DNA of 64,000 bases. It comes from Gemmatimonadota bacterium (GTDB lineage: Bacteria > Gemmatimonadota > Gemmatimonadetes > Longimicrobiales > Gaopeijiaceae). Where the stretch lies: NCBI GenBank assembly GCA_003248075.1, contig QJYK01000237.1:1-64000 (forward strand). Direction: 5' to 3'. Positions 4,244 to 43,295 of the stretch are shown here, piece by piece (the first letter of the stretch is position 1; each line of letters opens with the position of its first letter). The translations under genes and the position numbers were made by a program. The notes beneath the pieces were generated by a model. That model ran no database searches, was not told where the DNA came from, and saw nothing but the letters and a program-made list of their open reading frames with translations.

Positions 4244-7200
4244 TCAGGGCGCCTCGGACACGATGGGCGGAAGCCCCCGCTCCGCCAGCAACCTGTTGAA
4301 GCGCGAGAGGTCGTTCTCGGCCAGCTCCGCCCAGCGAGCGAGGACCGCGCGCAGCTCTTCGCGATAGAGGTCGCGCACTTCGGTGGCCTGGTCGGTGGGC
4401 CGCGCATCGCTTCCCGAGATGTACCCCGCGAGGCTCGTCAGCTTCGCGAACAGGCGCCGCGGCCATCGTATCGTGTCCTGCCCGGCGAGGCCGCCCGACA
4501 GCCGCAGGTCGAAGAGCCGCATCTCGAGCTCCATGAGCGACGCCTCCAGGGCCTCGCCGGCCTCGACGAGGTCACGCACCCCGGCCGCGTCGCGGAGACG
4601 CGCCCCCAGGTCGTCGAGCGCTTCCCGGGCCCACTCGATCCGCTCCACGAGCGCGGCCGTCGAGTCCGTCATCTCGCGTAGCTCCAGCATCATGGCGAGC
4701 TGTTCCGCCATGTCGTCCCCGGTCCCATCGGACTCCGGGTCCTGGAGCACGGTGAGCCGAGCCGTTCGCTCCTCGGAGCCCACACGCAGGCGGACTCGAT
4801 AGCGCCCGGGAACCGCGAGGGGGCGGACCGTGCCCCCGTCCGGCGCGGGGCGCCATCCCGATTCGCCTGGCCGGACGTGGGCGTGCCGAAGCGCAGGCGT
4901 ACGGAGACGCGGACGAGCGGACGGCGTATGGCTCAGGTCCCACACCACCCGGTTCAGGCCGCGGTGGGCGTCCCGCACCGGAAGCTCCCGGACGACCCCG
5001 CCGCGCTCGTCCTCGATCGAAATCGAGACCGGTCCATCCGGCGCTTGCCCTAGGTGGAAGTTCAGCGTGGCACCGTACTCGGGATTCTGGCCGGCCGTCG
5101 GGTCCCCGGGTTGACTGTTCGCGCCTTCACGACGGAGGAACCGGTACGCGGGCCGGGGCTCGAAGAGGTGGACGCGATCCGCCAGCACCTCGTCCGTGAG
5201 CTGCTGGAGCGGGGTGACATCGTCGAGGATCCAGAAGCCCCTGCCGTACGTGGCCACCACGAGATCGTCGAAGTGAGGCTGGATCGTGAGCCAGTGCGCC
5301 GGAGCGTGCGGAAGGTCACCCTGGATCGAGCTCCAGCGCCGACCCTCGTCGAACGAGGCGTACACGCCGTTCTCGGTCCCCAGGTACAGCAGTCCCTCGC
5401 GTACGGGGTCCTCACGCACGACGTGCACGTATCCGAGCACCGAGCGGGGCAAACCCGCGGCCAGCGAGCGCCAACTCGCGCCGTAGTCATCCGTGCGGTA
5501 GACGTACGGCTCCGGGTCGCCGAGCTGGTGCCGGTCGACCGTGAGATACGCCCTGCCCGGCTGGACGCGTGACGGCTCGATGTTGGAGATCGTCCCCATG
5601 GGAGGCAGGCCGGCGATCCCGCCCGTCACGTTCTCCCAGGTCCGTCCACCATCGCGGGTCACGTGAACGAGGCCGTCGTTGGAGCCGGCCCAGATCACTC
5701 CCGGCTCGAGCGGCGACTCCGCGATCGCGAACAGCACCGAGTAGTAGGTCGGGCTGACGTCCTCGGTGGTCAGGCCCCCGCTGGCTTGCTGACGGGACTT
5801 GTCGTTCGTCGTCAGGTCCGGGGAGATCACCTCCCAGCTCTGGCCCCCGTTCCGCGTCCTATGGACGTGCTGGCTACCCACGTAGACCGTCTCGTGGTCG
5901 TGTGGCGAGATGTGGATCGGAAACGTCCACTGGAACCGGTAGCGCAGCTCGGCCGCACCCCACCCCTCCGGGTTGTCGGGCCAGACGCTCACGGTCCGGG
6001 TGACGCCCGTGGAGAGCTCGTGGCGATCGAGGATCCCCTCGTAGCAGCCCGACCAGGCGACATCGTTGGTGACGGTGTCGGGCACCGCGAATCCCGACTC
6101 ACAGCCCCCCACCGAGCGCCAGGCGCCGATCGGGATCGGGCCACCGGTCAACGTGTTGGACGGCCCCACGCTCGAGGGCCCGTCCTGTCGGTTGCCGTAG
6201 AGGTTGTACGGGACCGCGTTGTCGGTGAAGACGTGGTACATCTGGGCCGCCGGGAGCTGCGGGCGGTACCACGTCTCGCCGCGGTTGGTCGAGATGCTGA
6301 TGCCGCCGTCGTGTCCCACGATCATCCGGTCGGGGAGCATCGGGTCGATCCACATGTCGTGGTTGTCCCCCCCGGCTCCCCCGCGCTCGACCGCGACGCC
6401 TCCGTCGAGCGAGCGCGTGTGCGCCGTGGACATGAAATGCACCTCGTCCCGGTCATCGGGAGCCACGGCCATGCGGGAGTAGTAGAGCGGGCGTTGGGCG
6501 AGGGCGTGGTCCGCGTTCACCATGCGCCACGAGCGTCCCCCGTCGTCGGAGCGCCAGAGCACGCCCTCGTGCTCCTCGAAGGGCTCGAAGGCCTCGTTCG
6601 AGCTCGTCTCGATCAGGGCGTAGATCCGGTCCGGATCGTCGGGCGTCACCCCCAGGCCGATCTTTCCCATCGTCCCGCGCGGCAGCCCGTTGCCCTCCAG
6701 CCGGGTCCACGTGTCACCGCCGTCGTCGGAGCGCCAGAGCCCGCTCTCCGGACCGCCGCTGACCCGGCCCCACGGCCGGATGATCATCTGCCAGGTTGCC
6801 GCGAACAGGATGCGCGGGTTGGAGGGGTTCATCGCGATGTCCACCGCGCCCGCGTTCTCACCGGCGAACAGGATGCGCTCCCAGCTCCGACCGCCGTCCC
6901 GCGTCCGGAAGACCCCCCGCTCCTGCTGGGGCCCGTACAGGTGACCCAGGGCCGCCACGAACACCACCTCCGGGTCCCGGGGATCGATGACGATACGGCC
7001 GACCCGACCGCTCGACTCCAGACCCATGTGACGCCAGGTCCGGCCGGCGTCGGTGGAGCGATAGACGCCATTGCCGATCGAGACGTTGGATCGAATGAAC
7101 GCCTCTCCCGTCCCGGCCCAGAGTACGTTCGGGTCCGACGGGGCCAGCGCGAGGGCACCGATCGACTGGACGGGTTGCCCGTCGAAGATCGGCCGCCACG

Positions 7201-7432
7201 AGTGGCCGGCATCCTCGGACTTGAAGATCCCACCGGAGGCCGCCCCCACATAGTAGACGTTGGCATTGCCTGGCTCGCCGATGACGGCGCTGACCCGATT
7301 GCCGACAGGGCCTACGTACCGGTAGTCGAGGGTGGCGAAGGCATCGGCGGGGAGCGTCGCCAGGGTCTGCCCCGCGGCCGGCGTGGCCGCCAGGGCGAGG
7401 ACGTGGATCAACCGGTCGGGGCGCAGGCGCAT
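4244..7432 (-). CDS. VPS10/sortilin-like Asp-box propeller protein (paralog 1)
   Basis: 1062 residues, secreted: the chosen ATG opens a signal peptide (MRLRPDRLIHVLALAATPAAGQ). A longer in-frame extension upstream has no coding character. Many Asp-box (BNR) motifs of the S-x-D-x-G-x-[TS]-W type are spread through residues 70-750 (SEDAGHSW, STDAGRTW, TRDGGRSW, SDDGGDTW, SDDGGRSW, TRNGGQSW, TRDGGRTW). These define a sortilin-like ten-bladed propeller related to photosystem stability factor Ycf48 and glycosyl hydrolase folds. A C-terminal beta domain and a helical tail (about 930-1060) follow. No catalytic residues can be assigned; a scaffold or carbohydrate/protein-binding role is an inference. 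Two paralogs lie elsewhere in the window. Confidence 0.85.
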   Translation of the reverse strand: MRLRPDRLIHVLALAATPAAGQTLATLPADAFATLDYRYVGPVGNRVSAVIGEPGNANVYYVGAASGGIFKSEDAGHSWRPIFDGQPVQSIGALALAPSDPNVLWAGTGEAFIRSNVSIGNGVYRSTDAGRTWRHMGLESSGRVGRIVIDPRDPEVVFVAALGHLYGPQQERGVFRTRDGGRSWERILFAGENAGAVDIAMNPSNPRILFAATWQMIIRPWGRVSGGPESGLWRSDDGGDTWTRLEGNGLPRGTMGKIGLGVTPDDPDRIYALIETSSNEAFEPFEEHEGVLWRSDDGGRSWRMVNADHALAQRPLYYSRMAVAPDDRDEVHFMSTAHTRSLDGGVAVERGGAGGDNHDMWIDPMLPDRMIVGHDGGISISTNRGETWYRPQLPAAQMYHVFTDNAVPYNLYGNRQDGPSSVGPSNTLTGGPIPIGAWRSVGGCESGFAVPDTVTNDVAWSGCYEGILDRHELSTGVTRTVSVWPDNPEGWGAAELRYRFQWTFPIHISPHDHETVYVGSQHVHRTRNGGQSWEVISPDLTTNDKSRQQASGGLTTEDVSPTYYSVLFAIAESPLEPGVIWAGSNDGLVHVTRDGGRTWENVTGGIAGLPPMGTISNIEPSRVQPGRAYLTVDRHQLGDPEPYVYRTDDYGASWRSLAAGLPRSVLGYVHVVREDPVREGLLYLGTENGVYASFDEGRRWSSIQGDLPHAPAHWLTIQPHFDDLVVATYGRGFWILDDVTPLQQLTDEVLADRVHLFEPRPAYRFLRREGANSQPGDPTAGQNPEYGATLNFHLGQAPDGPVSISIEDERGGVVRELPVRDAHRGLNRVVWDLSHTPSARPRLRTPALRHAHVRPGESGWRPAPDGGTVRPLAVPGRYRVRLRVGSEERTARLTVLQDPESDGTGDDMAEQLAMMLELREMTDSTAALVERIEWAREALDDLGARLRDAAGVRDLVEAGEALEASLMELEMRLFDLRLSGGLAGQDTIRWPRRLFAKLTSLAGYISGSDARPTDQATEVRDLYREELRAVLARWAELAENDLSRFNRLLAERGLPPIVSEAP

Positions 7433-7605
7433 CGAAGCTCCTTGGGGTCGGCGGCGGACCGGGCAAGGTAGAGCGCCGGGTGGCGCACGGGAAAGCACAC
7501 GTTCGCGGGTTTGAAGCATGCCCTTCCCAGCGGTTATGGTTTGCTGCCGACGGCGCCCGCTTCTCTCGCGCCCGAATGGGGCGCAACCGGACGGAGGGAC
7601 CGAAC

Positions 7606-9432
7606 ATGGGTCGAATGGAGGCACGGGTAGACACGAAGGCGGGCCGGTCCGCGGAGCGATTGCCGGGGGCGCTGGTCTCCGCGGGAGCGGTGCTCGGGCT
7701 CCTGGTCGGCGTCCGTGGGGTCGTGGCGTGGGAGCCGGGCCGGCTGAAGGGGCTCCTCGCGCTTCCGGAGATCCCGAGAGAGTCACTCGGGCTCGACTGG
7801 TACGCATCGGTCAGGTGGCCCGCACAGCTCCAGGCCACGGGTGTCGAGAGGATCGCGTGGCTCGTGGCCGGGCTGCTTCTCGCCGGGGCCATGATCGGGC
7901 TGGTCGGCTCGCTCCTGCTCCTGTTCGAGGCCGGTGCCACGCGGCGCCGCGACGTGGCGCTGAGGGCGGCCGTCGGCGCGCCCCCGCACGTCCTGCTCCT
8001 GGTTCTCCTCCGCCGCATCCGCACGCTCGGGCTGGCTGCGTGTGGGCTGGGGCTGCTCCTCGGCCTGGCCCTGGGCGCGCTCATACGGGGCGCGTGGCCG
8101 GGGGCGCTCACGCCGATCCGCTGGGCCGACGCCCTCGGGGCGCTCCTGCCGTCGGTGACCTTCGTGCTCGTCGCCCTGGGGCTCTCGTACCTGTGGGCGG
8201 GGATCAGGATCGCGCGGGGCGCTGTGCTCGCGAACACCCTCATGGACGGGGGCCGGAGCACCGCGGGCCGGGGTGACGTGGCGCGACGCCGGGTCGTGCC
8301 GGCACTCCAGATGGGGATCGCCGGGTCCGTGGTGATCGGCGCCTCGGCGATGGTCGCGCCGCTAGTGACGCGCGGCGCGGTGGCGGCCGCGCCCTCCGAG
8401 CAGACGGTGGTGTTCTCCGTATCCCGGAACGCCCCTGTCCCGGCACGAGTCTGGATCGACACGCTGTCCCGGATCGGCGCACTGCCAGGCGTAGCGGTCG
8501 GGTCGGCGGCGACGCCCGGCGCGCTGGTCGGGCTCGGGCCACGGGCCTCCGCGCTGGCGGAGTGCGGGAACTGCATCCGCGGTCTCATGCTCGCCCCCTT
8601 CTGGGCCGCCCTGGCGGATCACCATGCGGTGGCGCCCGGCTACTTCGCCGCGGCGGGAATCCGCGTCGAGGAAGGACGAGACCTCGCCTCCACGGACGGT
8701 CCCGACGCCCCCCGGGTCGCGCTGGTGAACCGCGCCTTCGCGAATACGGCATTCGAGAGGGGGCAGCCCATCGGGAAGCGGGTGCGCCTGGGCCCGGGGT
8801 TGGACGATTGGTACACCGTGGTGGGGGTAGTCGAGGACTTCCATACCGCGGTGGTGGGCGGGGACGACCTCAGCCGTGCGGCGGTCTACGTGAGCCTGCT
8901 GCAGCGTCCGGCGGGGTCCGCTCAGGTCCTCGTCACCGGCTCGAGCGCCGCGGTCGACGAGGCCCGCGACGTCCTTCAAGCCCACGGGTTCGCGTCCGAG
9001 GAGCCCGTCTCGCTGGACGAGGTACGGGCTCAGGCCGCGGCTCCGCTGGGCTGGGCCGCACGGGTCGCCGCCCTCCTCTGTCTCGTGGCCCTCGCCCTGG
9101 CGGTGATCGGGGCACGGGCGACGGCGCTCCACATCACGAGGCGCCGCATCCGGGAGCTCGCGGTACGGCGCGCGCTCGGAGCCGACAACCGACGCATACT
9201 GGGCCATGTGCTCGGTGGCGCGGCGCGGAGCGCGGCGTGGGGCGCGGCGCTGGCGGCCCTGGGCGGCGCCTCGTTCGTGGCGCTGCTGCGCAAGGCGGTC
9301 GGGGGCGTCCCCGCGCCGGGCCCGGAGGTGTACCTGGCGGTGACGGGCCTCCTGGTCGGCGTCTCGCTCCTGGCGGCGCTGCGCGCCGGACGGGAAGCGC
9401 TCGAGGTGGAGCCCGCGGCCGCGATGGAATGA
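7606..9432 (+). CDS. FtsX-type ABC transporter permease without ATPase (short ADOP-like)
   Basis: 608 residues. The ATG at 7606 is preceded by GGAGGG at 7593-7598; the longer upstream reading has no better start. The order is a membrane helix, FtsX-type membrane segments with the RRRDVALRAAVGA motif (about residues 105-220), a MacB-like periplasmic domain with AAGIRVEEGRDL and VALVNRAFA (about 300-465), and a C-terminal FtsX domain with RRRIRELAVRRALGA and three helices. It resembles the C-terminal two thirds of the orphan permease at 27865-30342 and lacks the first periplasmic domain. No ABC ATPase gene is adjacent. Orphan permeases of this kind are frequent in Acidobacteriota and Gemmatimonadota; the substrate is unknown. 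Confidence 0.82.
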   Translation: MGRMEARVDTKAGRSAERLPGALVSAGAVLGLLVGVRGVVAWEPGRLKGLLALPEIPRESLGLDWYASVRWPAQLQATGVERIAWLVAGLLLAGAMIGLVGSLLLLFEAGATRRRDVALRAAVGAPPHVLLLVLLRRIRTLGLAACGLGLLLGLALGALIRGAWPGALTPIRWADALGALLPSVTFVLVALGLSYLWAGIRIARGAVLANTLMDGGRSTAGRGDVARRRVVPALQMGIAGSVVIGASAMVAPLVTRGAVAAAPSEQTVVFSVSRNAPVPARVWIDTLSRIGALPGVAVGSAATPGALVGLGPRASALAECGNCIRGLMLAPFWAALADHHAVAPGYFAAAGIRVEEGRDLASTDGPDAPRVALVNRAFANTAFERGQPIGKRVRLGPGLDDWYTVVGVVEDFHTAVVGGDDLSRAAVYVSLLQRPAGSAQVLVTGSSAAVDEARDVLQAHGFASEEPVSLDEVRAQAAAPLGWAARVAALLCLVALALAVIGARATALHITRRRIRELAVRRALGADNRRILGHVLGGAARSAAWGAALAALGGASFVALLRKAVGGVPAPGPEVYLAVTGLLVGVSLLAALRAGREALEVEPAAAME

Positions 9433-9656
9433 CGAGGCGAGGGGTCGTTTCCCCTTCCGCCGCCGAAACGGCGTGCCGCGTTTCGTGAAACGAGCGTGCC
9501 GGGGAGGCCGCGCCGGTGGAAGGGGCTTTGCGCCGGCCGAGAACGCCCGGGAGCCGTGGCCTTTCCGGAACCCCTGGCTCCCTTCGCGGGTTTGAGCACG
9601 ACGCTTGCCACAGGTCGTGCGTCGCACCCGCGGACCCATCGCCACAGGAGACCCGC

Positions 9657-35401: not shown

Positions 35402-36352
35402 ATGGATCGATTCAATTCGGGCTTGACGCTGACGAGCTCCGAAGTCGCGGAGCTGCTCGAGGTCCACCCATCGACGGTCAAGCGCTGGTGTAACGACGGC
35501 GAGCTCATCTCCGAGAAGACCGCGGGTGGGCACCGCCGGCTCAACCTGGGGGACGTGATGGCGTTCGCCCGGGCCCGTCACATCGCGACCGTGCTGACCC
35601 CTTTTGAACCCTACGAGCCCCACGTCTGGGCGGCGCTTCAGGAGCTGCGGCAGGAGGGATCCTTCGGGAGACTCCATGCCCTGGCCATGTCCTGGGTGAG
35701 TCGGGGCCAGATCCGGCGACTCGGCCTGCTCTACGATGCCCTGGCGCGGGACGCCTCGGTCGGGCTCTGTCGGTTCTGTGACGACGGCGTTCGAGACCTC
35801 ATGGTGCGGGTCGGCGAGGCGTGGGCCCGGGGTCAGCTCCGGGTAGGTGAGGAGCACCTGGTGAGCCAGGCCATGTACGAGGTGCTGGTCAAGCTCCGCT
35901 CCGACCAACGCGAGCAGATGATGCCCGCGCGCGGTGGCCCGGATCGACCCGTGGCAGTGGTGGGAACCATGGAGGGCAACCAGCACCATCTGGGGTCGAT
36001 GTGCGTGCGCATCCTCCTGGAGCGCAGAGGTTGGGAGGTCTTCTACCTCGGACCGGACGTCCCGATCGAAGACTTCGGAGTCGTCCAGCGGGGCCGTTCG
36101 GCAGAGCTCGTGTGCATCTCGCTCGCGCCCCCGACGGCTGCCGGTGACGTGGCGCGCGCCGTGCGCGTACTGGAAGGGCTGTACGATCCGACCCAGCCCT
36201 ATGCGCTGGCACTCGGAGGGGAGCTCCGGGGAGACGTGGATCGGGCGCTCCTGGCAGGTCCGTTTCGCGACCTGGAGATCCACGATTCCCTGATCAGCTT
36301 GTGCGGCCAGTTGGACCGGCTCGATTCGCTCCGCGCGGGTTCTCCCCGATGA
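35402..36352 (+). CDS. carH: CarH/LitR-type B12-dependent (light-responsive) repressor
   Basis: 316 residues. An N-terminal MerR/excisionase-type winged helix (residues 8-60, TSSEVAELLEVHPSTVKRWC ... AGGHRRLN) is followed by a helical bundle and a Rossmann B12-binding domain (about 183-305). The CarH signature W-x9-EH is intact at Trp141, Glu151, His152. The lower cobalt ligand His is His195 in EGNQHHLG, with Asn where the usual ExDxH has Asp. In the dark such proteins bind adenosylcobalamin, form tetramers and block carotenoid genes; light breaks the complex. The residue after Trp141 is Ala, where Thermus CarH has its upper His ligand. Its stop overlaps the next gene's start (ATGA). Confidence 0.93.
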   Translation: MDRFNSGLTLTSSEVAELLEVHPSTVKRWCNDGELISEKTAGGHRRLNLGDVMAFARARHIATVLTPFEPYEPHVWAALQELRQEGSFGRLHALAMSWVSRGQIRRLGLLYDALARDASVGLCRFCDDGVRDLMVRVGEAWARGQLRVGEEHLVSQAMYEVLVKLRSDQREQMMPARGGPDRPVAVVGTMEGNQHHLGSMCVRILLERRGWEVFYLGPDVPIEDFGVVQRGRSAELVCISLAPPTAAGDVARAVRVLEGLYDPTQPYALALGGELRGDVDRALLAGPFRDLEIHDSLISLCGQLDRLDSLRAGSPR

Positions 36353-37227
36353 AGAGCACACCGTCGTTCCGGATACATCCGGCGGAGCGGGTTGGGCTCT
36401 GGGTCCTGGCCCTCCTCACGGTTCTGGCGGTGGCCGGCTACTGGAACTTCGCCCTCCATCCGGAGCGGCTGCCGGCGACGCCGAGCGCGGCCCGATTCTA
36501 CGCGATCTCCTTCCAGTTCTTCGCGCAGGCGCATGTCCTGGTCTCTGCCGCGGTGCTGGCGGTTGTCCTGTTCCGGCGGACAGGCACGCGCTGGGTCCTG
36601 GCCTTCGGCGCCGTGTACCTGCTGAGCTTTGCGGCGGAGCACCTGGGTACCGGCTACGGGGTCCCCTTCGGCGGCTATCGATACACGGGTCTGCTCGGGG
36701 CAAAGGTCGGAGGCCGGGTACCCGTGCTCATCCCGGTGAGCTGGTTCCTCATGGCGCTCCCTTCCTGGGTGATGTCCCGACGGGCCCTTCCGCGAAGGGA
36801 GCAGCGCATGGGGCGCCTGGTGCTCGGGGCGAGCTGGATGGTGGCGTGGGACCTGGCACTCGACCCGGCGATGAGCTTCCTCACGCCATACTGGCTCTGG
36901 GACAACGCCGGTCCCTACTACGGCATGCCCTTGCTGAACCTGCTGGGATGGGCCACGACGGCCTTCGTCCTCATGGCCGCGCTGGACATGATCGGTCCCA
37001 AGGCATCCCTGGACCGGGTGCCCCCCGGTTGGGCCGCCGGCTACTACGGCACCGTTCTCCTTCTGCCCCTGGGGATGGTGGGGGTCGCCGGCCTTTGGCC
37101 CGCGGTGCTGGTGACCGTCGCCGGCGTGGGCGCAGTCGGGGGCCTGACCCTCGGCGTGGGCCGGATGCAAAGCCGAGCGGGCACAACCCTGCCGGACGCC
37201 GCGGCTGCCGCGGTGGCGACCCGGTGA
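36349..37227 (+). CDS. cruF: Carotenoid biosynthesis membrane protein, CruF-like (DUF422)
   Basis: 292 residues starting in the overlap with carH. About seven or eight membrane helices. The family signature is present: AEHLGTGYGVPFGGYRYTG, then LIPVSWFLMALPSWVM and AWDLALDPAMS. Members hydrate or otherwise modify the psi ends of acyclic carotenoids (CruF, 1',2'-hydratase; bacterioruberin-type enzymes). Its place between carH and the phytoene synthase fusion supports that role. The exact reaction cannot be fixed from sequence. Confidence 0.85.
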   Translation: MKSTPSFRIHPAERVGLWVLALLTVLAVAGYWNFALHPERLPATPSAARFYAISFQFFAQAHVLVSAAVLAVVLFRRTGTRWVLAFGAVYLLSFAAEHLGTGYGVPFGGYRYTGLLGAKVGGRVPVLIPVSWFLMALPSWVMSRRALPRREQRMGRLVLGASWMVAWDLALDPAMSFLTPYWLWDNAGPYYGMPLLNLLGWATTAFVLMAALDMIGPKASLDRVPPGWAAGYYGTVLLLPLGMVGVAGLWPAVLVTVAGVGAVGGLTLGVGRMQSRAGTTLPDAAAAAVATR

Positions 37228-39149
37228 GCGGGGCCGTTCTCGCGGCGCCGCGAGTCTCCGCGGCCCCCACCGCATCGACGACGGTGTCGGACGGCCTCCG
37301 AGGCGCGGCCCAGGAGCTGGAGGAGCGGGGGGTTCCGATTCCTCATCTTGCCGGGAAGCTCCTGCGCCCGCTGGTCGCCTACGCGCTCGTGCCACCTGCC
37401 CTCCGCAACGGCCTCGATCGCCGGTTCTGGATGGGCGCCCTGGCCGTCCAGATGATCCACGAGGCGTCTCTCATCCACGACGACATCCTGGACGACGCGC
37501 ACGAGCGTCGGGGAAGACGCACGTTGGTCGCAGAGCACGGACTGGGCCCGGCGCTGGTCCTCGGTGATCACTACCTGACCGGTGCGTATCGGGCGGCGGC
37601 GGCCACGGGCTCGGCCGAGTTCCTGGACGTGTTCATTCACGCGGTCGAGCGCACGGTCGCTGGTGAGGTGGCGCAGGGGCGGAGTACCGGCCGGAGGCTG
37701 GAGCCGGCCACCTACCTCGAGATCGTCGTCGGAAAGTCCGGCGAGCTCTTCGGCGCCGTGGCCGCTCTGGGAGGCGCGCTGCTTGGGCTCGGTCGGATGG
37801 AAGAGCGCGTAGGCCTGGGGCGGGAGCTCGGTGCCCTCTATCAGCGGGTTGACGACCTGTTGGACTACTGTGTGGCGGCCAGCACGGGGAAGCCGCCGCT
37901 ACAGGATTTCCGCCACGCGAAGTGGACCTGGGTGTTGGATCTGGCGGGCGTGGGTTCGTTCGACGAGGTCGACGAGGCGGGCGTGCTCGACCGCCTGTTC
38001 CTGCCCTCGGACGGGGGGGCCTCCGCAGCGCGGCGCGCCCTGGAGGCGCTCCGCGCGATCCGCGACGACCTCGTGGCCCGCGCCGCTGAGCTGGCCCCTT
38101 GCGACACGCTGGTCGCGCGCGTCCTGGACGACTGGCTCGACGCCGCTCGGACCGGCGTCGCGGACCAGGAGCGGGCGCACCGCGTCGTCACCGAAGCGCC
38201 CACCCCGGGACGGCTGGAGCCCGGAGGTGGTCCGTCGTCCGTCGTGGCGCAGGTGGTCCGTCTCGCGCACGAGATCGGGGACCGAGCCAGCTGGCGCGCA
38301 TACCTCGGTCATCACGGTCGAACCTTCCATTTCGCCTCGAAGCTCTTCCCCGCGGATGCCGCCCGTGCCGTCGAAGGTGTATACGCGTTCTGCCGCTTCA
38401 CGGACGACCTGGTCGACGCTCCCCATGACGGCGCGACGCCCCCGGTGCTCCAGCGTCGCCTCGACGCGTGGGAGGGACTGGTCAGGGAAGGCCTGGAGGG
38501 CCGCCGCACGGGGGTACCGCTGGTCGACGAGGTGGTGGGCCGGTCGCGGCGGGCGGGTGTGGACTCGACCTACCCGTTGGCGCTGCTCGACGGAGTCCGC
38601 CTGGATCTGGCCGGAGCGGAGTACCGGGACTTCGACGAGCTCGAGCGCTACACCTACGGCGTGGCCTCGTCGGTGGGTGGTTGGATCACCCAGCTGTTCG
38701 GCATTCACGATCGTGAGCTGCTCGAGCGCGCGCACGCGCTCGGTCACGCCATGCAGCTGACGAACATCATTCGTGACGTGGGAGAGGATCTGGATCGCGG
38801 GCGCCTCTACGTGCCGACGACGCTGCTCGACGCGCATGGGCTCACGCGAGACCGGCTGATCCTCCTCCGCGGGGGTGAAGAGTCCATCCCGGACGCGTAC
38901 GCGTCGCTCATGGAAGAGCTCATGACGGTCGCCGACGCCCGGTACGCGGCAGCCTGGCCCGGCATTCGCGCCCTTCCGTCGTGGTTCCGGCGACCGGTCG
39001 CCGTAGCCGCGGAGGCGTACAGGGCCATTCACGACGCGGTGCGCGAGAACGGCTACGACACGCTGCGCAAGCGGGCGTCCACCCGGCTGTCGACGAAGCT
39101 GGCTCGCGCATCGCGCGGCCTGCTGAAAGCGGCAGGACGCCGCTCGTGA
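37224..39149 (+). CDS. Fused geranylgeranyl diphosphate synthase - phytoene synthase
   Basis: 641 residues from a GTG overlapping the cruF stop. Residues about 25-320 are a trans-prenyltransferase: GKLLRP (44-49), first Asp-rich motif DDILD (86-90) and second motif DDLLD (210-214). Residues about 340-640 are a squalene/phytoene synthase: YAFCRFTDDLVD with Asp394-Asp398, the LDGVRLDLAG/YTYGVASSVGGW region, and NIIRDVGEDLDRGRLYV with Asp518 and Asp522. Both active sites look complete. The protein should turn IPP/allylic diphosphates into GGPP and then phytoene (or a C30 analogue). The reading frame runs unbroken through the linker (about 300-340), so this is a true fusion. Confidence 0.93.
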   Translation: MSGAVLAAPRVSAAPTASTTVSDGLRGAAQELEERGVPIPHLAGKLLRPLVAYALVPPALRNGLDRRFWMGALAVQMIHEASLIHDDILDDAHERRGRRTLVAEHGLGPALVLGDHYLTGAYRAAAATGSAEFLDVFIHAVERTVAGEVAQGRSTGRRLEPATYLEIVVGKSGELFGAVAALGGALLGLGRMEERVGLGRELGALYQRVDDLLDYCVAASTGKPPLQDFRHAKWTWVLDLAGVGSFDEVDEAGVLDRLFLPSDGGASAARRALEALRAIRDDLVARAAELAPCDTLVARVLDDWLDAARTGVADQERAHRVVTEAPTPGRLEPGGGPSSVVAQVVRLAHEIGDRASWRAYLGHHGRTFHFASKLFPADAARAVEGVYAFCRFTDDLVDAPHDGATPPVLQRRLDAWEGLVREGLEGRRTGVPLVDEVVGRSRRAGVDSTYPLALLDGVRLDLAGAEYRDFDELERYTYGVASSVGGWITQLFGIHDRELLERAHALGHAMQLTNIIRDVGEDLDRGRLYVPTTLLDAHGLTRDRLILLRGGEESIPDAYASLMEELMTVADARYAAAWPGIRALPSWFRRPVAVAAEAYRAIHDAVRENGYDTLRKRASTRLSTKLARASRGLLKAAGRRS

Positions 39150-39880
39150 ACCCGGGCTCCCCTTTCTGGTGGCGCCCCTTCGATCAGGGGCGCGCTCGGT
39201 GGATGGGCCGACGGGTGCGGGTGCACATCACCGGCCTGCGCCCCCTTTCGGACGAGTCCCGACCGCTGCTGCTGGTCGCGAACCACGAGAGCTTCTGGGA
39301 CGGTTTCCTCCTTCGCGAGGTACAGCGACGCCTGCGCCCCGCGGCTCCCTTCCGGACGGTGATGCTCGCATCGGAGCTCCGCCGCCACCGGTGGCTCGGT
39401 CTGCTGGGGGCCATGGGCATCGCACCCGGCTCGTTGGCGTCCACCCGGGCGCTCCTCCGCCGCTTGGCCGCCCTGTCGGACGCTCGGCCGAGCTCGGTGA
39501 TCGCCTTCTTTCCGCAGGGTCGCATCCGACCTGACGATCCCCGCCCACTGGGCTTCCGGAAGGGGATCAGGGCGGTGGCGTCCGCGCTGGCCCCGGCGAC
39601 ACTCGTACCGGTCGGCTTGCGCGTCCTCCCCGGGAAAACGGCTCGAGTGGAGGCCTTCCTATCGCTCGGCATCCCGGTGGGGGTGACCTCGGGCGAACCC
39701 GTCTCCGTGGCCACAGCGGAGGCCTGCGTCGCAGCGGAGCTGGACGCGATCCGCCGGTTCGTATCCGAGCACGGGGAGGACGCGGCGGACCGTTGGCCGA
39801 GCGTCCATTCGTCCCTACCCCGGGCTCCACGACGGGCGCAGCCGTCGACGCGACACCGATCCTGGATCTCGAGGAATTAG
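39146..39880 (+). CDS. PlsC-family acyltransferase in the carotenoid operon
   Basis: 244 residues from a GTG overlapping the preceding stop. Acyltransferase motifs: NHESFWDGF (HX4D) near residue 47 and FFPQGRIRPDD near residue 120. The C-terminal part is less conserved and basic. In carotenoid clusters such enzymes acylate glycosylated carotenoids (as in staphyloxanthin) although no glycosyltransferase lies here; phospholipid synthesis is the alternative. Confidence 0.8.
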   Translation: MNPGSPFWWRPFDQGRARWMGRRVRVHITGLRPLSDESRPLLLVANHESFWDGFLLREVQRRLRPAAPFRTVMLASELRRHRWLGLLGAMGIAPGSLASTRALLRRLAALSDARPSSVIAFFPQGRIRPDDPRPLGFRKGIRAVASALAPATLVPVGLRVLPGKTARVEAFLSLGIPVGVTSGEPVSVATAEACVAAELDAIRRFVSEHGEDAADRWPSVHSSLPRAPRRAQPSTRHRSWISRN

Positions 39881-39983: not shown

Positions 39984-40205
39984 ATGGATCAACCGCGAAA
40001 TCGCCATGCGCCCATCCCGATGGTGCCTCATGACTCGAGTTGTTGTGGGTTGGGGCGGCACGGCCCCTCCCCCCGCGTTGGAGCTCCTGGCCGTAGCTAC
40101 GGCTATGGCATCGTCGCTCCGCCTTGGTTGGAGGGCCGTGGCGCTCCGGGGCACCCGTGCGCAGCATGGGTCGCGGGGTGCTCCCCCCCTACCGCGGACC
40201 GCTAG
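39984..40205 (+). CDS. Candidate small protein or leader peptide before crtI
   Basis: A 73-codon frame whose ATG at 39984 has a near-perfect TAAGGAGGA at 39969-39977. The peptide is rich in Gly, Pro, His and Cys (SSCCGLGRHGPSPRVGAPG; SYGYGIVAPPW) and has no recognised domain. It ends two bases before the crtI start, so translation could be coupled. Codon and residue composition are not clearly those of a normal protein. Without it, the 39881-40207 gap has no other gene. Confidence 0.35.
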   Translation: MDQPRNRHAPIPMVPHDSSCCGLGRHGPSPRVGAPGRSYGYGIVAPPWLEGRGAPGHPCAAWVAGCSPPTADR

Positions 40206-40207
40206 AC

Positions 40208-41782
40208 ATGCGCGATAGAGCGAAGAGTGCGGTGGTGATCGGCAGCGGGTTCGGCGGGCTGGCGATCGCCTGCCGGCTTCAGGCCGCGGGCCTGCAGGTC
40301 ACCCTGCTCGAGAAGCGCCAGCGTATCGGCGGGCGCGCCTACCAGCTCCAGGATCGAGGCTACGTCTTCGACATGGGGCCGAGCCTCATCACGGCCCCGT
40401 ACGTCGTCGACTCGATCTTCCGCGCCGCGGGACGCCGGTTGGAGGACTACGTGGAACTGATCCCACTGGATCCGTACTACCGGGTGTACTTCCACGACGG
40501 CACCCACTTCGATTACGTGGGCGACCCGGAGCGCATGAAGGCGCAGATGGCGCGGTTCTCCGAACAGGACGCCAGCCGCTATGACGCCTTCATGGAGGCG
40601 GTGCGTCCGATCTTCGATGCCGTGGTCGGGGATCGGTTGGGGTCGAAGCCGTTCGACACGGTCGGCTCGATGATGCGCTTCCTCCCGCGCATGGCCCGCA
40701 TGCAGGCCCACCTTCCGGTCACCGCGTTCGTGAATCGGTACTTCGAGGACTTCCGCCATCGCTTCCTGTTCTCGTTCCACCCGCTCTTCGTCGGTGGGAA
40801 TCCGTTCCGCACGCCCTCCGTCTACCTCATGATCCCGTTCCTGGAGCGGGAGGGCGGTGTCTGGTTCGCCAGAGGCGGCATGTATTCGGTGGTCGAGGCG
40901 CTGGGCCGGCTCTTCGTCGAGATGGGCGGAACGATCCGGACCGGCGAGGAGGTCCACGAGATCGTGGTGGAAGCCGGACGCGCCGTGGCGGTGCGAACGG
41001 CGACCGGCGAGGCGCGAGGCGACCTCGTGGTCAGCAACGCCGACCCGGGCCACACGTACGGGGCGCTCGTGCACCCAGCCCATCGACGGCGTTGGACCGA
41101 TCGGAAGCTGGCTCGTACCGAGTGGAGCATGAGCTGTTTCCTCCTCTACCTCGGAACGCGACGTCGCTACCCACAGCTGGAGCATCACACCCTGATCCTG
41201 GCGGAGCGGTACAGGGGCCTCCTCCGGGACATCTTCGGGAAGAAGATCCTGCCTGAGGACTTCTCCATGTACCTCCACGCCCCCACCCGGACGGACCCAT
41301 CGATGGCTCCCGAGGGCGGGGAGAGCATGTACGTCCTCGTCCCGGTGGCCAACCAGCGCTCCGGGCTGGACTGGTCCCATCTCAAGGAGCCGTTCACGGA
41401 ACGGATCCTCGCGTTCCTGGAGGAGTGGGGGCTCGAGGACCTCCGACGCGAGCTGGAGGTCCTGCACGTGTTCACCCCGGACGACTTCGAGACGGAGCTC
41501 AACGCGACGCTGGGCAACGCGTTCGCCATCGAGCCGCGGTTCACGCAGACCGCGTGGTTCCGACCCCAGAACCGCAGCGAGGACGTCGAGGGACTCTACC
41601 TCGTGGGGGCGGGCACGCACCCGGGAGCGGGGGTCCCCGGCGTGCTCATGAGCGCCGAGGCGACCTACGCCTGTATCGCGGAGGACGTCGGGCTTCCGGA
41701 CCAGTGGGACTGGGGGGAGCCCGGCCGGGTCGCTCTCATCACCGAGGTGAGCGGGCCGGGTGCCGCGGCGCTGGAGCGCTAG
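40208..41782 (+). CDS. crtI: Phytoene desaturase CrtI family
   Basis: 524 residues from the ATG at 40208 (MRDRAKSAVVIGSGFGGL); longer in-frame starts add no homologous sequence. N-terminal FAD-binding motif VIGSGFGGLAIACRLQAAG with EKRQRIGGRA, then DMGPSLITAP and FHPLFVGGNPF. The C-terminal dinucleotide motif is GLYLVGAGTHPGAGVPGVLMS. CrtI uses FAD and oxygen or quinone to introduce conjugated double bases into phytoene, giving neurosporene or lycopene. It lies 327 bp after the acyltransferase gene with the same orientation. Confidence 0.94.
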   Translation: MRDRAKSAVVIGSGFGGLAIACRLQAAGLQVTLLEKRQRIGGRAYQLQDRGYVFDMGPSLITAPYVVDSIFRAAGRRLEDYVELIPLDPYYRVYFHDGTHFDYVGDPERMKAQMARFSEQDASRYDAFMEAVRPIFDAVVGDRLGSKPFDTVGSMMRFLPRMARMQAHLPVTAFVNRYFEDFRHRFLFSFHPLFVGGNPFRTPSVYLMIPFLEREGGVWFARGGMYSVVEALGRLFVEMGGTIRTGEEVHEIVVEAGRAVAVRTATGEARGDLVVSNADPGHTYGALVHPAHRRRWTDRKLARTEWSMSCFLLYLGTRRRYPQLEHHTLILAERYRGLLRDIFGKKILPEDFSMYLHAPTRTDPSMAPEGGESMYVLVPVANQRSGLDWSHLKEPFTERILAFLEEWGLEDLRRELEVLHVFTPDDFETELNATLGNAFAIEPRFTQTAWFRPQNRSEDVEGLYLVGAGTHPGAGVPGVLMSAEATYACIAEDVGLPDQWDWGEPGRVALITEVSGPGAAALER

Positions 41783-41791
41783 GCCGGGAGC

Positions 41792-43192
41792 TCAGGAGCC
41801 GGGATCCGGGTCCGCCTCATGGCCGAGGGGCCTGCCGAGCTGATGGCGGAGGGAGTCTTCCACCCCCTCGTAGCGGAAGCGGAACCCGGCGCTCGCCAGC
41901 TTCGTGGGCACCACACGTTGGCCCCAGAGCAGCGCCTCCTCGCCGAGCTGCCCGAATGCCGCCTTCACGGCGATCCCCGGGAGCGGTATCAGGGTCGGTC
42001 GACCCAGGACGCGGCCCAGCGCCGAGGTGAACGTCGCGTTCGTCACGGGGTTCGGGGCGGTCGCATTCACCGGCCCGCTGATGGACGTGTCGTAGAGGAC
42101 GTGGAGGTGGATGCCCACGAGGTCGTCGAGATCGATCCAGGAGAAGTACTGACGGCCGCTTCCCAGACGCCCCCCGATGCCCATCTTGAAGGGTAGGAGC
42201 ATCTGGCCGAGCGCGCCCCCCGCCGGCGTGATCGCCACCCCCTGCCGCAACGACACGACCCGAATGCCCGCGCTCTGAGCGGGACGGCTCGCGGCCTCCC
42301 ACTCCCGGGTGAGCTGCGCGAGGAAGCCCTTGCCGGGCGACGACGACTCGTCGAGCCGCTCGTCGCCCCTGTTACCGTAGAAGCCCACCGCCGATGCGCA
42401 TACGAGGGTCCGTGGACCCCGCGCCATGCGCGCGAGGGTTCGAGCGATCAGATCCGTGCTCCGCACGCGACTCTCGACCAGGACCTTCTTGCGAGCCTCG
42501 GTCCAGCGACCGCTCGCGAGCGACAGCCCCGACAGATGGACGACCGCGTCCACGCCCGCGAGGCCGTCCTTGTCGATTTCGCCCGTGTCCGGATTCCAGA
42601 AGATCCCGTCCTGCCCAAGCCGCCTCCGATCTCTCAAAAGGCGCACGACCCGGTGGCCGCCGGTGCTGAGGAAGGACCGCAAGTTGCTGCCGATGAGGCC
42701 CGTCGAGCCCGTGATCGCGACCGTCAGGCGCGGCTTTACCGCGTGGGTGGCGTGGCGATCGAGATCCCCGGCCAGACGCTCGTAGCGGAACGCGAACAGG
42801 CGGTCGAGCTCGCGCCGGACGAAGACAGGGCCCACCGGAAGGCCGAGGGGCGCCTCGAGATCGATGGTGTCCTCGAGGCCACAGCCACCCCCGCCCAGGG
42901 GATGAAAGCGGTGCGCGTGGACCCACGACTTCAGAGGACCCGAGATCTGCTCATCGCAAAACCGTCGATTGGCTTCGTAGTCTCGATGACGGAGCTCCCA
43001 ACGGAAGGACGCGGGGCCCTGTCGCACGCGGAGGACGACCCGCGCTCCGTCGCGGATGCCCGGGTCCTGGTGCAAGATCTCGACGTCGGCCCACGGCGGT
43101 GTAAGCCGCTCGAGCGCGCCGGGCCGCTCGTGCCAGGCGAAGACATCATCCACCGTGTGCTGCGGTAGCTCGGTCCGGTAGGTCAGGCGCAT
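41792..43192 (-). CDS. SRPBCC-TIGR01777 epimerase fusion
   Basis: 466 residues from the ATG at 43192 (MRLTYRTELPQHT). Residues 1-155 are an SRPBCC/cyclase-like ligand-binding domain (VDDVFAWHERPGALERLTPPW, SWVHAHRFHPL). Residues 160-460 are the TIGR01777 short-chain epimerase family: ITGSTGLIGSNLRSFL, VVHLSGLSL, RTLVCASAVGFYGNRGDE, LRQGVAITPAGGAL, YFSWIDLDDLVGI and GPVNATAPNPVTN. The family often sits with LitR/CarH and photolyase genes in light-response clusters, as here. The substrate is unknown. Convergent with crtI; their ends are 9 bp apart. Confidence 0.9.
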   Translation of the reverse strand: MRLTYRTELPQHTVDDVFAWHERPGALERLTPPWADVEILHQDPGIRDGARVVLRVRQGPASFRWELRHRDYEANRRFCDEQISGPLKSWVHAHRFHPLGGGGCGLEDTIDLEAPLGLPVGPVFVRRELDRLFAFRYERLAGDLDRHATHAVKPRLTVAITGSTGLIGSNLRSFLSTGGHRVVRLLRDRRRLGQDGIFWNPDTGEIDKDGLAGVDAVVHLSGLSLASGRWTEARKKVLVESRVRSTDLIARTLARMARGPRTLVCASAVGFYGNRGDERLDESSSPGKGFLAQLTREWEAASRPAQSAGIRVVSLRQGVAITPAGGALGQMLLPFKMGIGGRLGSGRQYFSWIDLDDLVGIHLHVLYDTSISGPVNATAPNPVTNATFTSALGRVLGRPTLIPLPGIAVKAAFGQLGEEALLWGQRVVPTKLASAGFRFRYEGVEDSLRHQLGRPLGHEADPDPGS

Positions 43193-43295
43193 CGATCGAG
43201 GAATCGGACGGGGTGAGGGAAAGACCCGCGAGACAGGCCCGCGCTTCTCGCAGCGCATACCCCGCAAGGCGCTCGCGGTCCCCGACGTGGAAGCC

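Follow-up and report, generated by a model that had tools for sequence, protein, structure and literature searches.

GGPP is a branch-point intermediate. An engineered fusion of phytoene synthase (PSY) and GGPP synthase (GGPPS) converts IPP to phytoene nearly completely, compared with ~60% when the enzymes are separate (Camagna et al. 2019, as summarized in PMC9399743). In the fungal enzyme PaFS, most GGPP stays on the protein, by proximity and not by way of a tunnel (PMC8190136), and the natural phytoene synthase fusions that we met in the literature involve later pathway steps. For Gemmatimonadota, the accessible part of a survey reports crtB and crtI and does not mention a fusion there (PMC10581226). 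Our literature search, which left most subscription journals and all preprints outside its scope, returned no paper describing GGPPS naturally fused to phytoene synthase, in keeping with the view of a first-pass annotation of the present locus that this order is not a commonly known bacterial fusion. The natural arrangement is apparently undescribed, while both enzymes and their chemistry are known and ordinary.

The fused gene examined here lies in a window of 64,000 nucleotides (the whole stretch of DNA that was analyzed), where it forms a single stop-free frame of 641 residues with a GTG start codon. Its parts are:

37224..39149, + strand: fused gene, N-terminal trans-prenyl diphosphate synthase and C-terminal phytoene synthase (open frame, two Pfam domains over cut-off, 39 fused homologues)
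37224..38195, + strand: prenyl diphosphate synthase domain, residues 1–324 (PF00348 at 42–238; fold match over model residues 7–311)
37479..37493, + strand: first Asp-rich motif DDILD, residues 86–90 (Asp invariant in 40/40)
37851..37865, + strand: second Asp-rich motif DDLLD, residues 210–214 (Asp invariant in 40/40)
38196..38234, + strand: disordered linker, residues 325–337 (pLDDT <50; lengths vary among homologues)
38268..39137, + strand: phytoene synthase domain, residues 349–638 (PF00494 at 363–621; fold match over 349–639)
38403..38417, + strand: phytoene synthase motif DDLVD, residues 394–398 (Asp invariant in 40/40)
38775..38789, + strand: phytoene synthase motif DVGED, residues 518–522 (D518 and D522 invariant in 40/40)

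The N-terminal half belongs to the polyprenyl_synt family (PF00348) both by profile score (residues 42–238, E = 1.5e-33, 116.5 bits versus a curated cut-off of 27) and by its two DDxxD motifs (86–90 and 210–214). Likewise, the C-terminal half belongs to the SQS_PSY family (PF00494) by score (residues 363–621, E = 4.2e-62, 210.7 bits versus a cut-off of 26) and by two DxxxD-type motifs (394–398 and 518–522). Scores against narrower equivalog models fell below their cut-offs: the prenyl domain reached 33 bits of the 460 set for CrtE-type GGPP synthase (NF045685), and the second domain reached at best 160 of 500 bits among the NCBIfam models of 15-cis-phytoene synthase CrtB (NF045921) and 170 of 278.6 bits for the presqualene diphosphate synthase HpnD (TIGR03465).

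To assess conservation, we aligned the window protein with 39 fused homologues (40 sequences), which are 38–54% identical to it and share its domain order and a linker without stops. Residues invariant in all 40 include D86/D87/D90, R95/R96, K171, Q207, D210/D211/D214, K223, and D228 in the prenyl half and D394/D395/D398, D518/D522, R391, and R527 in the phytoene synthase half, whereas K45 is kept by 30 of the 40 sequences and K233 by 20. The claims of the first-pass annotation that both prenyl synthase motifs and both phytoene synthase motifs are intact in one frame, and that two successive enzymes of the pathway are genuinely fused, are both borne out by this alignment. The interval from W304 to F368, both ends of which are conserved, spans 40 to 93 residues among homologues, which fits a flexible linker. 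A search of 59 relatives and a subsequent one of 298 genomes from the phylum found full-length, stop-free fused matches in many of them, including the single-contig genomes G005 and G123; in G043 and G055 the fused gene is cut by contig ends. An AlphaFold2 model built from the 40-sequence alignment (mean pLDDT 89.9, pTM 0.56) shows both domains confidently, residues 325–337 disordered, and the relative placement of the domains uncertain. Model residues 7–311 match prenyl synthases (Z up to 28.7) and residues 349–639 match dehydrosqualene/phytoene synthases (Z up to 33.4). Because both domains model as full folds matching known structures, both enzymes are complete, with neither truncated.

The fusion sits among genes that point to carotenoid synthesis:

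35402..36352, + strand: CarH-like regulator with helix-turn-helix and B12-binding domains (Pfam HTH_17, B12-binding_2, B12-binding)
36349..37227, + strand: CruF-type carotenoid hydratase (Caroten_synth, E = 8e-44; CruF models below cut-off; adjacent to and upstream of the fusion in the fused loci that we examined)
39146..39880, + strand: PlsC-type acyltransferase (Acyltransferase, E = 9e-7; GTGA overlap with the fusion)
40202..41782, + strand: CrtI-family phytoene desaturase (TIGR02734, 577 bits versus a cut-off of 238)

The regulator, CruF, the fusion, and the acyltransferase are joined successively by ATGA, GTGA, and GTGA overlaps, the fusion start overlapping the CruF stop and its end the acyltransferase start; this arrangement suggests that the four genes make up a single translationally coupled operon. 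Here the CruF start is taken as the ATG of the ATGA overlap with the CarH-like gene, in a frame that opens at 36301. CrtI follows ~320 bases downstream of this unit. The best NCBIfam match of the regulator is CarH, with a score far below cut-off. It contains W-x9-EH (WARGQLRVGEEH), a signature of light-sensing, B12-dependent CarH; because of this signature, the carotenoid operon may be under light control. The acyltransferase, which may acylate the carotenoid end product, is also found near the fusion in three other loci (L063, L067, and L069) and is missing from many related clusters. In the fused loci examined, CruF immediately precedes the fusion, usually with a CarH-like gene and CrtI in the vicinity; in several, a SpoU gene and a TIGR01777-type gene flank the cluster. 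In the window, a TIGR01777-type oxidoreductase with an N-terminal polyketide-cyclase-like domain lies at 41792–43267 (− strand), and several relatives also keep it just downstream of CrtI.

The range of the fusion was assessed in four phyla and a plasmid set. Among 34 relatives belonging to the same genus or family, 16 encode both domains in a single frame, and the fusion is concentrated in the source genome's own family, with copies scattered elsewhere in the class, including families f7 and f3 and one f5 genome. Other f5 genomes mostly carry phytoene synthase, CruF, and CrtI with no adjacent prenyl synthase. Among the matches listed from ~500 genomes of other phyla (151 Chloroflexota, 149 Spirochaetota, and 198 Actinomycetota), we saw single-domain proteins only, at thresholds (E = 1e-30, 1e-28, and 1e-60, respectively) that a fusion of distant domains could escape. 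None of 72,556 plasmids gave a match covering 80% of the fusion protein, and a contig scan with short peptides specific to it returned single-domain relatives only. Family f3, like its genus g36, is divided between genomes with the fusion cluster (L061 and L063) and genomes with an unrelated cluster (L078, L079, L080, and L081) of separate CrtB-, CrtI-, and CrtE-like genes. This pattern suggests replacement by horizontal transfer.

In phylogenetic trees, the prenyl domains of the fusions group in a deep clade of their own, distinct from the two housekeeping lineages and from the CrtE-like enzymes, and we could not place them in a named subfamily. The only standalone members of this clade among the matches listed come from Spirochaetota (L023 and L106), in loci without carotenoid genes. 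Standalone Spirochaetota members lie at 4527–5477 of L023, after a membrane protein that by eye resembles a VKOR-type protein, and at 9057–10454 of L142 (genome G492). Pairwise distances within one domain correlate with those within the other at r = 0.87, a value that none of 2000 permutations approached (best 0.22), and most subclades recur in both domain trees. Because the two domains diverged in step, the simplest reading is that the fusion is old and has been inherited as a unit. In the phytoene synthase tree, the fused proteins cluster with unfused ones of genomes G119 and G128:

L075 (G128), 7560–9442: CruF-phytoene synthase arrangement without a prenyl domain
L077 (G119), 6486–8587: CruF-phytoene synthase arrangement without a prenyl domain

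The best tree nests these two within the fused set, equivalent to two losses of the prenyl domain, while a single clade of fused phytoene synthases was not rejected by the AU test (p = 0.097). Their unfused state may reflect either domain loss or the state before fusion.

We counted prenyl synthases per genome in 23 genomes. Family members in which no phytoene synthase passed the search threshold have two each, whereas fusion genomes carry the fused one on top of two housekeeping-type synthases, for a total of three (four in G018). Hence, the fused domain is an extra synthase that travels with carotenoid synthesis. Where the phytoene synthase is unfused, f5 genomes mostly have two prenyl synthases (four in G145); the f3 genome G036 has three. 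Some relatives manage with the housekeeping pair. In G119 and G128, the unfused phytoene synthase lies right behind CruF and there is no third prenyl synthase, so fused prenyl supply is dispensable.

With considerable confidence, we predict that the protein is a bifunctional GGPP synthase/phytoene synthase that takes C40 carotenoid synthesis through its first two committed steps. Its N-terminal domain would extend an allylic diphosphate with IPP to give GGPP (C20), and its C-terminal domain would join two GGPP head to head to form phytoene, which CrtI would desaturate and CruF hydrate; the prenyl half would presumably also mediate dimerization. This reading draws on the fusion itself, the intact catalytic residues of both domains, their conservation, the operon context, and the joint divergence of the domains. 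Points against it are the position of the prenyl domain outside the CrtE clade, an octaprenyl-type chain-length gate at A81/S82, the variability of K45 and K233, and the lack of the prenyl domain in G119 and G128.

We also weighed several alternatives. The source genome is a draft of 344 contigs, in which a sequencing or assembly artefact could have joined two genes; however, the identical joint recurs in 39 homologues from separate genomes, single-contig ones included. According to the first-pass annotation, relatives whose linker is interrupted by a stop or frameshift would speak against a genuine fusion; we found no such interruption, and with the frame maintained across homologues we reject the artefact, whose probability is negligible. 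A different proposal is that the prenyl half is catalytically idle or of low output and acts as a dimerization or docking module, with GGPP coming from a housekeeping synthase. This would suit both the variation at K45 and K233 and the retention of phytoene synthase without a prenyl half in G119 and G128, but 40 proteins, down to 38% identity to that of the window, all retain both DDxxD motifs, the RR pair, K171, K223, and D228. An idle domain would not be expected to keep these residues, and we consider this proposal quite unlikely.

Other alternatives concern chain length. The nearest solved relatives of the prenyl domain by sequence are octaprenyl synthases, and A81-S82, just before the first Asp motif, align with the AS of the T. 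maritima octaprenyl synthase, so that this gate reads as open, as in long-chain enzymes. Both observations would accord with a prenyl product longer than C20 (C25 or more) that the second half uses to build a longer carotenoid backbone. Against this, F133 and F137, each present in 39 of 40 homologues, should shorten the pocket; long-chain synthases have V/L/A and M/I/F at these positions (V and M in the E. coli octaprenyl synthase, L and F in the T. maritima enzyme). We therefore hold a longer product to be very improbable. The same low probability attaches to the specific case of a prenyl half that ends elongation at C25, with two such units then joined by the attached synthase into a natural head-to-head C50 carotenoid backbone; to our knowledge, no natural C25+C25 carotenoid has been described. 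At the shorter end, the first domain could make FPP and the second dehydrosqualene or presqualene diphosphate, a C15/C30 route in line with HpnD as the top, sub-threshold NCBIfam match of the second domain and with CrtM-type enzymes as its closest solved structures. However, at the position aligned with F26 of S. aureus CrtM the protein has S372, and all 40 sequences have S, A, or T there. Replacing F26 opens CrtM to C40 synthesis, and Ala occupies this position in CrtM entry 3ae0, whose structure was determined with a geranylgeranyl substrate analogue. The C15/C30 route is also disfavored by the adjoining CruF and strong CrtI-family desaturase genes and by the C40 carotenoids of cultured relatives from the probable class (PMC8342508); we rate it as unlikely. 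Because of the small residue at the CrtM F26 position and the CrtI and CruF neighbors, a C40 product of the predicted phytoene synthase half is likely, and from context, F133/F137, and the C40-type residue S372 we infer a C20 product of the prenyl half.

If the protein is indeed a GGPP synthase/phytoene synthase, proximity of the two sites would bring less loss of GGPP to other users and a fixed 1:1 supply, with no closed tunnel. By analogy, substrate channeling of this kind, which the first-pass annotation had raised as something the fusion could do, is plausible because the engineered plant fusion and fungal PaFS show such an effect; whether the fusion protein would channel measurably we regard as an even bet. 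The dozens of fused homologues, together with the unfused G119 and G128 arrangements, make the value of proximity channeling in carotenoid synthesis testable. The fusion also offers one-gene parts, and it exposes a prenyl synthase clade in which chain-length control could be studied.

Separate bacterial CrtE and CrtB (e.g., on a Sulfitobacter alexandrii plasmid) catalyze the same two reactions from carotenoid clusters, but they are encoded by two genes, and the window prenyl synthase falls in a different clade from the CrtE-like enzymes sampled. Fungal lycopene cyclase-phytoene synthases (carRA, al-2) and the thraustochytrid CrtIBY are, like the window protein, natural phytoene synthase fusions; unlike it, they join phytoene synthase to later steps rather than to GGPP supply (PMC3153474, PMC10016063). 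Fusicoccadiene synthase PaFS and other fungal bifunctional terpene synthases likewise chain a GGPP synthase to a GGPP-using enzyme, yet their partner is an N-terminal cyclase instead of a phytoene synthase, the linker is ~70 residues, and they are fungal (PMC8190136). The engineered PSY-GGPPS fusion shares with the window fusion the presence of both activities, here predicted, in one chain, but it is man-made from plant enzymes with GGPPS at the C-terminus, whereas the window fusion is natural with GGPPS at the N-terminus (PMC9399743). Engineers fused these enzymes to stop GGPP loss; here, what would be the same two steps are joined naturally, family-wide, in the opposite order, and in what appears to be an old fusion.
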